Part shown: one piece after another, positions 23,330-47,308 of the stretch | How the letters are laid out: every line of letters begins with the position of its first letter | Numbering within the stretch: the stretch's first letter is position 1 | NCBI GenBank assembly: GCA_009702965.1 | Contig: WLHB01000006.1 | Location: 1 to 47,308 of the forward strand | Direction of reading: 5' to 3' | Length of the DNA: 47,308 bases | From: Actinomycetota bacterium | GTDB taxonomy: Bacteria > Actinomycetota > Actinomycetes > Nanopelagicales > Nanopelagicaceae | The notes under the pieces: model-generated | Told to the model about the DNA's origin: nothing | Databases searched by the model: none | Seen by the model: the letters and a program-made list of their open reading frames with translations, nothing else | Translations under genes and position numbers: made by a program

Positions 23330-24814
23330 TTATTCGTTCCATCCGCCATCACCAGGTGAAGCGGGTTGTTTAAAATCAGATGGCTGTGATGAGGTGAAGT
23401 CGCGACCTGAACCAGGATTTGCTGCCATATCTGTAAAGCGAGCAAAGTGAAGTTGTGCGGTCACGGTAATGGTGCGTGTAGGTCCGTTACGGTGCTTTGC
23501 AACGATTAGATCTGCCTCGCCTTGGCGGTTCTGTGAATCGTACATATCTTCGCGGTGGAGCAAGATAACAACGTCAGCATCTTGTTCAATCGATCCAGAT
23601 TCACGTAGGTCAGAGAGCATTGGAACCTTATTTGTACGCTGCTCCGGGCCACGGTTGAGCTGAGAGATTGCAATAACCGGTACATCGAGTTCCTTCGCCA
23701 TAAGTTTAAGTTGGCGAGAGAATTCAGAGACCTCTTGCTGACGATTTTCTACGCGCTTACCTGATGTCATCAGCTGTAGGTAATCGATAACAACGAGCTG
23801 CAAGTTATGGCGCTGCTTGAGGCGACGGGCCTTAGCGCGGATCTCCATCATCGATAGGTTTGGTGAATCATCGATAAAGAGTGGAGCATCTGAAATTTCG
23901 CCCATACGACGAGCAAGTTTTGCCCAATCATCATCGCTGAGTTGTCCTGAGCGAATACTGTTAAGACCAACGCGCGCCTCTGCCGACAACATACGCATAG
24001 TGATTTCAGATTTCGACATTTCAAGAGAGAAGATCACAGATGTTTTATTCTCGTGAATAGATGCATGGCGCGCGATATCAAGACCAAGTGTTGACTTTCC
24101 AACTGCAGGTCGCGCTGCAAGAACGATCATATTTCCAGGATGTAATCCGTGAGTGAGTAGATCAAGATCGCGGAAACCAGTCTTTACACCTTCAACACCC
24201 GCGCCCTTTGAAATTGCTTCAATCTCATCGAGTGCTTGCGGCAAAATTGTAGAGAGCTGTACATAATCCTCTGATGAACGTCGCTCTGTAACCGCGTAGA
24301 CCTCTGCCTGTGCTTGATCAACTGCATCATCTACTTCACCTTCGGCGTTATATCCCAGTTGAACAATCTTTGTTCCTGCCTCGATAAGGCGGCGCATAAT
24401 TGCATGTTCCAAAATAATTTTTGCGTAGTACCCGCCATTTGCAGCAGTTGGTACGGAAGAGATCAGCGTATGTAGATATGGCGCACCACCGGCGCGTGCA
24501 ATATCTCCGCGCTTTGTTAACTCTGCAGAGACGGTAATTGCATCTGCTGGTTCGCCGCGTCCATAGAGATCGAGAATGGCATCAAAGATAAGTTCGTGGG
24601 CAGGTCGATAGAAATCGCGTTCGCGAATAACTTCAATAACATCTGCAATTGCATCTTTAGATAACATCATTGCGCCGAGAACAGATTGTTCTGCGATGAG
24701 ATCTTGTGGTGGTGTGCGCTCAAAGTCAGCGCCTACAGTTGAAAATGATCGGCTTGAATTGTTGGGGAGTTCTGCAATGCTCACAGTGCACACCCTCCCA
24801 TCGGCCACCGACAT
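23330..24814 (-). CDS. dnaB: Replicative DNA helicase
   Basis: AEQSVLGAMMLSKDAIADV, ARPAVGKSTLGLDIARHA, VVIDYLQLM, SDLRESGSIEQDADVVILLHRED. Confidence 0.97.
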   Translation of the reverse strand: MSVADGRVCTVSIAELPNNSSRSFSTVGADFERTPPQDLIAEQSVLGAMMLSKDAIADVIEVIRERDFYRPAHELIFDAILDLYGRGEPADAITVSAELTKRGDIARAGGAPYLHTLISSVPTAANGGYYAKIILEHAIMRRLIEAGTKIVQLGYNAEGEVDDAVDQAQAEVYAVTERRSSEDYVQLSTILPQALDEIEAISKGAGVEGVKTGFRDLDLLTHGLHPGNMIVLAARPAVGKSTLGLDIARHASIHENKTSVIFSLEMSKSEITMRMLSAEARVGLNSIRSGQLSDDDWAKLARRMGEISDAPLFIDDSPNLSMMEIRAKARRLKQRHNLQLVVIDYLQLMTSGKRVENRQQEVSEFSRQLKLMAKELDVPVIAISQLNRGPEQRTNKVPMLSDLRESGSIEQDADVVILLHREDMYDSQNRQGEADLIVAKHRNGPTRTITVTAQLHFARFTDMAANPGSGRDFTSSQPSDFKQPASPGDGGWNE

Positions 24815-24901
24815 CTATCTAAACTGACAACTAAATTGTTAGAGCCAGGTGCGAAACTTAGGCGTAGCGGGTGGCTTTGCGCGAAAAAAGGGCGATCACC
24901 G

Positions 24902-24976
24902 TGTGGAGAAGTTGTGCATAAGGGGGTGGATAACCCGACCTTTACCTGTGGATGGGTGTGTATAAGGTGTGGGTAA
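24902..24976 (+). promoter_or_regulatory. Cluster of DnaA-box-like 9-mers upstream of dnaB
   Basis: Direct-oriented TGTGGAGAA(24902), TGTGCATAA(24913), GGTGGATAA(24925), TGTGGATGG(24947), TGTGTATAA(24957), TGTGGGTAA(24968); two fit TGTGNATAA, the others differ from TGTGGATAA at 1-2 positions. Confidence 0.55.
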
Positions 24977-24990
24977 GTCTGCGATTACGG

Positions 24991-25017
24991 TGAACAGCGC
25001 GTTAAAAGTCCTGTTCA
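24991..25017. repeat. Perfect inverted repeat TGAACAG-N13-CTGTTCA
   Basis: TGAACAG 24991-24997 and CTGTTCA 25011-25017, read directly. Confidence 0.7.
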
Positions 25018-25128
25018 AAGGCTAACTCTTCCTCCACAGGGTGAATGGGGAAGAAAGATTTCAAAGTCTTATCAGGTGAGATTGCCTGCTTTCCAAAGTA
25101 AGCCAACTGCGGTGGGAGTATTACTCCC

Positions 25129-26100
25129 ATGATCGTTGATTACGCACTTTATCAAGATGGACGACGCAGTCATCGCGATGCACCAATCTCAGATCTCATC
25201 GCATTCGCCCAACAAGAAGGTGGCTTCATCTGGGTGGGCGTTTCTGAGCCAACGACAGAAGAATTTGAAAAATTATCCGCTGATTTTAAGTTTCATCCAT
25301 TAGCTATCGAAGATGCGGTGATGGCAAAGCAACGCGCAAAGTTAGAGATGTATGAAGGTATGACATTTGCTGTACTGCGTACAACTTTTTATGAAGAGAG
25401 CGCAAGCCAGGTAACAACTGGCGAGATCCTGGCATTTATCGGCGAGCATTACATCGTGATCGTTCGACATGGTGAAGGTTCACCATTGACCGGTGTGCGC
25501 AATCGATTAGAACAAAGTCCACAGCAACTTGCGCGCGGACCATATGCGGTGCTCCACGCAATCGTTGACTCGGTTATTAATACCTATATCGCAGTTGCTG
25601 GAGAGCTAGAAAAAGATGTGATCGAGGTTGAGCAGAGCGTCTTTAGCGATCGCAAGGCTTATAACTCTGAGAAGATCTATTTTTTGAAACGTGAACTGCT
25701 CGAATTTAGCCATGCAATACATCCATTGCTGCTCCCATTGCAACGCCTTGCCGTTGATTTCAATGACATAGTCCCTGACGCTCTCTCTCCATTTTTCCGA
25801 GATACTCTCGATCACTTGAATAGCGCTGTAGATATCGCAATTGGTCTCGATAATCTCTTAACGTCTGCGCTCACTGCTGATCTTGCACATGTGCAGGTGC
25901 AGCAAAATGCAGATATGCGCAAGATAACTTCTTGGGTTGCACTCGCTGCTACTCCGACCATGCTTGGTGGAATCTACGGAATGAACTTTGAACACATGCC
26001 AGAACTTCAATGGACATTTGGATATCCATTGGTTCTTGGCGTTATGGCTATTGTTACATCCGCCCTCTATTACAAATTTAAGAAATCCGGCTGGTTATAA
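25129..26100 (+). CDS. corA: CorA-family magnesium/cobalt transporter
   Basis: C-terminal two TMs with GIYGMNFEHMPEL (GMN motif). Confidence 0.95.
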   Translation: MIVDYALYQDGRRSHRDAPISDLIAFAQQEGGFIWVGVSEPTTEEFEKLSADFKFHPLAIEDAVMAKQRAKLEMYEGMTFAVLRTTFYEESASQVTTGEILAFIGEHYIVIVRHGEGSPLTGVRNRLEQSPQQLARGPYAVLHAIVDSVINTYIAVAGELEKDVIEVEQSVFSDRKAYNSEKIYFLKRELLEFSHAIHPLLLPLQRLAVDFNDIVPDALSPFFRDTLDHLNSAVDIAIGLDNLLTSALTADLAHVQVQQNADMRKITSWVALAATPTMLGGIYGMNFEHMPELQWTFGYPLVLGVMAIVTSALYYKFKKSGWL

Positions 26101-46290: not shown

Positions 46291-46424
46291 TGTGGATAAC
46301 TACTTGCGCTTTTCCCAAAAGAGCTCTACTTTTCGACTTCTCCACAGGCTATCCGCCGAATTCGGGATTTTGCAGGGCTCAACCCCTACTTTAGACCACA
46401 GCCTGTGGATAACTTTGTGGATAA
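46291..46424 (+). promoter_or_regulatory. Three perfect DnaA boxes (TGTGGATAA) upstream of dnaA
   Basis: TGTGGATAA at 46291-46299, 46404-46412, 46416-46424; near match TTCTCCACA at 46338-46346. Confidence 0.85.
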
Positions 46425-46472: not shown

Positions 46473-47308
46473 ATGGCTGTTGTAGATGTGGAATTGAGCG
46501 CCCTCTGGGAGCGAGTAATCGAACATGTCTCAATCGGTGAGCCCCAACATCGCGCGTTTTTGATGATGACCAAGGTCCTCGGGTTAATCCAGAGCGAAGA
46601 TGGCACGAGTTTCCTCGTCGCAGCCCCTAACGCATTTGCAAAAGATGTTTTGGAGTCACGACTTCGTATTGTTGTTAACGAAGTTCTCACTCGCGAGCTC
46701 GGAGATAAGACCAATATCGCGGTAATGATTGATGAAAATATCGAACTTGCAGATCTTCCCGCTCCAACGATTGTTGTCGAGAGCACACCTGCACCAAGTA
46801 AAACTTTGGGACGCGATGCTATTGGTTCAATCAAGAACGAAGAGCCATCTCAACTTAACCCTCGCTATATTTTTGAAACTTTTGTTATTGGAGCCTCTAA
46901 CCGTTTTGCCCACGCCGCTGCAGTGGCTGTCGCTGAAGCACCTGCTAAGGCTTATAACCCGTTATTTATCTACGGTGATTCCGGATTGGGTAAAACCCAC
47001 CTTTTACACGCTATTGGAGCTTATGCAAAAGAGCTTTATGGCAATGTTCGCGTGCGTTATGTTTCATCTGAAGAGTTCACCAATGACTTTATTAACTCGA
47101 TTCGTGACGATAAAGCATCTGCTTTTCAACGCCGCTACCGCGACCTAGATATTCTTCTTGTCGATGACATCCAGTTTTTAGAAAATAAAGAACGGACACA
47201 GGAAGAGTTCTTCCATACATTTAATACTTTGTATAACGCCAACAAACAGATTGTTATCTCTTCAGATCGTCCGCCAAAACAATTAACAACTCTTGAAGAT
47301 CGTCTTCG
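46473..47308 (+). CDS. dnaA: Chromosomal replication initiator protein DnaA (3' truncated by window end)
   Basis: [20 protein letters not shown]..., [60 protein letters not shown]; manual translation. Confidence 0.97.

Follow-up and report, generated by a model that had tools for sequence, protein, structure and literature searches.

In mycobacteria, DnaA has already been shown to bind upstream of dnaB. In one study (PMC7738170), five regions were bound in vitro by purified Mycobacterium tuberculosis DnaA: oriC, rpmH-dnaA, the dnaB upstream region and two more. Tagged M. smegmatis DnaA occupied the same five in vivo, that of dnaB included. The same study describes one M. tuberculosis DnaA mutant, I282T, in which binding upstream of dnaB was weaker and dnaB was under-expressed (PMC7738170). 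In Caulobacter crescentus, dnaB is listed among the DnaA-regulated genes (PMC8203912, citing Hottes et al. 2005), and Escherichia coli DnaA prefers pairs of boxes that lie 2-3 bp apart at nearly all of its targets (PMC11317965). The timing of initiation in actinobacteria, mycobacteria and streptomycetes included, is largely open. Near oriC of Streptomyces coelicolor, the DnaA-box clusters D78, H24 and H69 were reportedly described by Smulczyk-Krawczyszyn et al. in 2006; dnaB of this species may, we presume, sit on the H24 cosmid.

The window, meaning the whole stretch of DNA that was analysed, was one contig of 47308 bp from the 1.12-Mb, 76% complete genome of a freshwater actinobacterium, whose nearest named relatives are Candidatus Planktophila and other Nanopelagicales. 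A sequence-only reading had described six 9-mers running in the same direction upstream of dnaB. All six were found where that reading had placed them, at 24902-24976, in a single orientation and TTATCCACA-like when read on the dnaB (minus) strand (Table 1). Their start-to-start spacings (11, 12, 22, 10 and 11 bp), which correspond to approximately one helical turn with one slot skipped, had been given correctly, as had the distance of ~21.5 kb to dnaA, which starts at an ATG at 46473 and extends beyond the window end. Five boxes carried one mismatch to TTATCCACA and the box at 24947 carried two; none of the six was perfect. Adjacent boxes, all in the same orientation, were separated by 2, 3, (skipped slot), 1 and 2 bp, and a box spacing of 11-12 bp leaves gaps of 2-3 bp, the arrangement preferred by E. 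coli DnaA. The start of dnaB is probably GTG 24784 rather than ATG 24814, as judged from a Shine-Dalgarno sequence (GGGAGG) and from GTGAGCATYGCAGAA, which is kept in relatives. Past dnaB and corA, the window carried rplI, ssb and a penicillin-binding protein gene.

Table 1. Positions of the dnaB upstream array and of associated features in the window.
Feature	Position	Strand	Remarks
dnaB (replicative helicase)	23330..24784	-	PF03796 (DnaB_C) Pfam match, E 2e-106; start re-assigned to GTG
Putative -10 TAAGTT within CCTAAGTTACGC block	24855..24860	-	41 bp from slot 6
DnaA-box slot 6, TTCTCCACA, promoter-proximal	24902..24910	-	at least 7/9 in 33/46 loci
DnaA-box slot 5, TTATGCACA	24913..24921	-	at least 7/9 in 41/46 loci
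DnaA-box slot 4, TTATCCACC	24925..24933	-	last-base C kept; identical 9-mer in 21/46 loci
Skipped slot, GGAAA-like spacer (window: GGTAAA)	24934..24946	-	A 0.72-0.83 in three columns, 46 loci
DnaA-box slot 3, CCATCCACA, 2 mismatches	24947..24955	-	weakest slot; at least 7/9 in 18/46 loci
DnaA-box slot 2, TTATACACA	24957..24965	-	at least 7/9 in 26/46 loci
DnaA-box slot 1, TTACCCACA, dnaB-distal	24968..24976	-	identical 9-mer in 23/46 loci
Degenerate copy TTTGAACAGGACTTTT of Nanopelagicales CTGACCTGCGCTTTT block	25004..25019	-	block conserved in relatives
Outer inverted box TCCTCCACA, 2 mismatches	25030..25038	+	remnant of relatives' outer box pair
Diverged copy of inverted repeat ATCTCA-N6-TGAGAT	25065..25083	-	repeat conserved in Nanopelagicales
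corA-like transporter, divergent neighbour of dnaB	25129..26100	+	PF01544, 6e-54
rpmH-dnaA intergenic DnaA boxes	46291..46424	-	perfect TTATCCACA at 46291, 46404 and 46416

The density of these sites, which the sequence-only reading had proposed to set against background, proved exceptional. There was no general enrichment of 9-mers with at most one mismatch in the 1.12-Mb genome (207, compared with 186 for a reversed control pattern), and it is because of this that the cluster in the window stands out: five such sites on the same strand within 75 bp are expected ~3e-7 times per genome. Markov shuffles (n = 6) of a 1.33-Mb relative contained at most 3-4 same-strand sites with up to two mismatches per 67 bp, compared with six in the window. 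The complete 1.33-Mb chromosome of P. versatilis (67 loci) was also scanned for box clusters. Two places only, rpmH-dnaA and dnaA-dnaN, had three or more boxes with at most one mismatch per 120 bp. When up to two mismatches were allowed, no same-strand cluster on the chromosome was denser than the array upstream of dnaB. On the basis of the background counts, the expected frequency, the P. versatilis scan and the shuffles, a chance cluster was rejected.

Conservation within the order was determined from 46 Nanopelagicales dnaB upstream regions, the window counted in, which were anchored on the array; a MAFFT alignment of the entire upstream regions was gappy and slot anchoring performed better. 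The 9-mers and their spacing, whose presence in relatives had been put forward as a check, were found across these loci, with slot offsets of 0, 11, 23, 43, 55 and 67. Slots 1, 4 and 5 matched at least seven of nine letters in 41-42 of the 46 loci, counts that are somewhat favourable since the register was chosen for maximal match, and slots 2 and 3 were frequently poor matches (Table 1). Some slots were conserved in an off-consensus form, slot 4 as TTATCCACC in 21 loci and slot 6 as TTATCCCCA in 16, and these slot-specific departures suggest that the affinities of individual boxes may be tuned. When the 46 loci were aligned on slot 4, conservation was confined to the slots and the GGAAA of the skipped slot, and fell to background past both ends. 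The array remained with dnaB while its other neighbour varied: corA adjoined it in only six relatives, so the array belongs to dnaB, and corA was rejected as the regulated gene.

The array extended well beyond this order. Other orders of the class were represented by 33 named loci (Cellulomonas, Actinotalea, Arthrobacter, Nocardioides, Streptosporangium, Embleya, Kineosporia and others), in which there were 189 forward boxes, compared with 26 in shuffled sequence. At least three forward boxes per 80 bp were present in 52 of 60 further loci, representing 30 of 34 other families of Actinomycetes; the reverse-strand control on the same 60 loci gave 8/60 and the shuffled mean maximum was 0.6. Distances between boxes clustered class-wide at 11-12, 21-23, 32-34, 42-45, 54-57, 64-68 and 75-79 bp, with a vector strength of 0.77 at a period of 11.0 bp, and the box letters drifted across the class to the actinobacterial DnaA variant TTGTCCACA. 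In the sister classes within the phylum, array-like arrangements were seen in 4 of 40 loci on the forward strand and in 4 of 40 on the reverse strand. This near-absence makes the array an attribute of the class and not of dnaB generally, and a general trait of dnaB upstream regions in the phylum was rejected. Two families outside the class (L223 of f54; L229 and L247 of f60) had 4-5 forward boxes per 80 bp upstream of dnaB, which possibly reflect either an older origin of the array or an independent gain.

These distributions bear on the main rival explanation, that the array is primarily a site for DnaA titration or inactivation, of the type of the S. coelicolor and Bacillus subtilis clusters or datA, with its adjacency to dnaB incidental. 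We consider this explanation unlikely. A pure sink could sit anywhere near oriC, yet the array keeps its place before dnaB in 30 of 34 families despite changing neighbours; in addition, and as a milder argument, most of its boxes are one or two mismatches off consensus, not perfect as for high-affinity sinks. Titration is consistent with the position of the cluster, which is origin-proximal (21.5 kb from dnaA) and duplicated early, with its rank as the densest same-strand cluster in P. versatilis and with the enrichment of boxes near origins (PMC12371093); reviews describe the clusters near the origins of S. coelicolor and B. subtilis as repressors of mistimed initiation (PMC4585315, PMC5742627). 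The mycobacterial data argue against it, since the M. tuberculosis DnaA mutant that binds less to this region has lowered dnaB expression (PMC7738170). Titration may be a natural side effect or a second role of a dnaB control element.

Additional conserved sequences were found on both sides of the array. An outer box, often an inverted pair, lay on the far side of slot 1, at a distance of 64 bp across most of the class and of ~75 bp in Nanopelagicales; the pair TCCACA-N2-5-GTGGA was present in 25 of 91 loci and in none of the shuffled sequences. In the interval that separates this box from slot 1, at ~35 bp from the array on its upstream side, loci L048-L207 carried a non-DnaA motif, GCAGGTCAG, which was exact in 23/91 loci and had one mismatch in 16/91 (0.4% exact when shuffled). 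Nanopelagicales carried it as the reverse complement CTGACCTGC, exact in 25 of 45; the window had only degenerate copies of this motif and of the outer boxes. In loci L005-L043, the repeat ATCTCA-N6-TGAGAT, followed by AAAATACTTT, was located ~95-110 bp upstream of slot 1; the repeat looks like a putative site of another regulator. Downstream of the array, ~15 of 46 loci matched the CCTAAGTTACGC block, which includes the putative -10 element, at 11-12 of 12 positions; no clear -35 element was found for the putative TAAGTT promoter. In the subgroup L001-L009 the block was missing, the array ended ~50 bp from the start codon and a proximal promoter could not be recognised; the layout of array and promoter is therefore variable.

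The GGRDHTTVMHADRKI-type motif of DnaA domain IV reads the DnaA box. The DnaA C-terminus was sought in the window's own genome, a 76% complete assembly, and was not found; the DNA-binding motif was therefore taken from the DnaA of P. versatilis, which has the canonical box-recognition motif GGRDHTTVMHADRKI. Each of the three P. versatilis box clusters had a counterpart among the five mycobacterial DnaA regions. Recognition of the TTATCCACA-like sequence by a protein other than DnaA is very unlikely: the 9-mer and its spacing are those of DnaA, the letters drift class-wide to the DnaA variant TTGTCCACA, and the equivalent mycobacterial region is a top in vitro target of the purified protein (PMC7738170). 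What speaks for another protein are the conserved departures from the DnaA consensus in slot 4 (TTATCCACC) and slot 6 (TTATCCCCA) and the extra non-DnaA motif nearby.

An auxiliary replication origin or helicase-loading site, the former of which had been among the functions proposed by the sequence-only reading, gained no support and is extremely unlikely. Such a role might be considered from the many DnaA boxes, the proximity to dnaB and a weak cumulative GC-skew minimum of P. versatilis at ~1.29 Mb (dnaB at 1.31 Mb, dnaA at 0), but at 10-kb resolution this minimum cannot separate loci 20 kb apart. Moreover, the array boxes have one orientation only and, as judged by eye, no AT-rich unwinding element flanks them. 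The layout expected of oriC, with two box groups in opposite orientation, is found at dnaA-dnaN. In the window, the perfect rpmH-dnaA boxes were accompanied by a fourth, near-perfect box at 46338, which reads TTCTCCACA on the plus strand; this group (46291-46424) is a probable candidate for a dnaA autoregulation site.

Conserved, phased and attached to dnaB, the array is likely to be a cis-regulatory, cooperative DnaA-binding element of this gene. The features of a DnaA-regulated promoter are present, namely boxes near TTATCCACA, gaps of 2-3 bp and linkage to dnaB. Class-wide conservation, absence from sister classes, these gaps and the mycobacterial binding all upheld the earlier idea of a phased cooperative DnaA array on the dnaB control region, and of the three functions then proposed a dnaB regulatory switch was the best supported. 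In the window organism, DnaA would occupy the six direct boxes in adjacent pairs with gaps of 1-3 bp. The ATP form would predominate; this preference is proposed because the boxes are imperfect. The bound molecules would all lie on approximately one face of the helix and could assemble into a short, polar oligomer immediately ahead of the dnaB promoter, by which dnaB transcription would be tied to how much initiator is present and which nucleotide it carries. Activation, rather than repression, of dnaB by array-bound DnaA is the most likely outcome. Since it lies 21 kb from dnaA/oriC, the array would be duplicated just after initiation and may then take up several DnaA molecules.

A more elaborate arrangement is quite doubtful, namely an Actinomycetes-specific DnaA nucleoprotein element that acts as a DnaA-ATP sensor or as a datA/DARS-like resetting switch and couples helicase supply to initiation. 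Its conjectural parts would be the polar six-slot array, the tuned affinities, the GGAAA skipped slot, the outer inverted pair and GCAGGTCAG, the last as a putative accessory-protein site, and the element might be ancient.

As a control element of dnaB, the array could account for one of the five mycobacterial DnaA targets. Its presence in nearly all sampled families and its absence from sister classes suggest that a connection between the initiator and the supply of helicase is a defining trait of the class, and its slots, spacing and accessory motif make it a precise element for mutation. No description of the class-wide array geometry, the class restriction or the accessory GCAGGTCAG motif was found in the literature searched, which is not proof of absence.

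Of the known systems, the M. tuberculosis and M. smegmatis region (Rv0057; PMC7738170, 2020) involves the same gene and the same place and is bound by DnaA, and the mycobacterial targets and the P. versatilis clusters share rpmH-dnaA and oriC as companion sites. In its available sections that paper names the region, without array geometry or conservation beyond mycobacteria, and the likeness is one of gene and place (PMC7738170). Caulobacter dnaB is similar in having predicted DnaA boxes upstream and DnaA-dependent expression (PMC8203912). Caulobacter belongs to a different phylum from the window organism, and shared ancestry of the two control regions is unlikely because the sister classes are without the array. 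The S. coelicolor DnaA-box clusters, from the same class, are likewise origin-proximal and are reported to restrain initiation (PMC4585315, PMC5742627). Like datA, DARS1 and DARS2 of E. coli, the locus pairs its cluster of boxes with a further conserved motif, a possible binding site for an accessory protein. The datA and DARS sites use IHF and Fis; the array has the class-wide GCAGGTCAG, degenerate in the window, with a putative accessory binder, and unlike datA, DARS1 and DARS2 it is tied to one gene. In the low-affinity arrays of E. coli oriC and in double-box DnaA-regulated promoters (PMC11317965) the boxes are likewise 2-3 bp apart; unlike the oriC arrays, that upstream of dnaB consists of six one-direction slots, with one skipped, and lies upstream of a gene.
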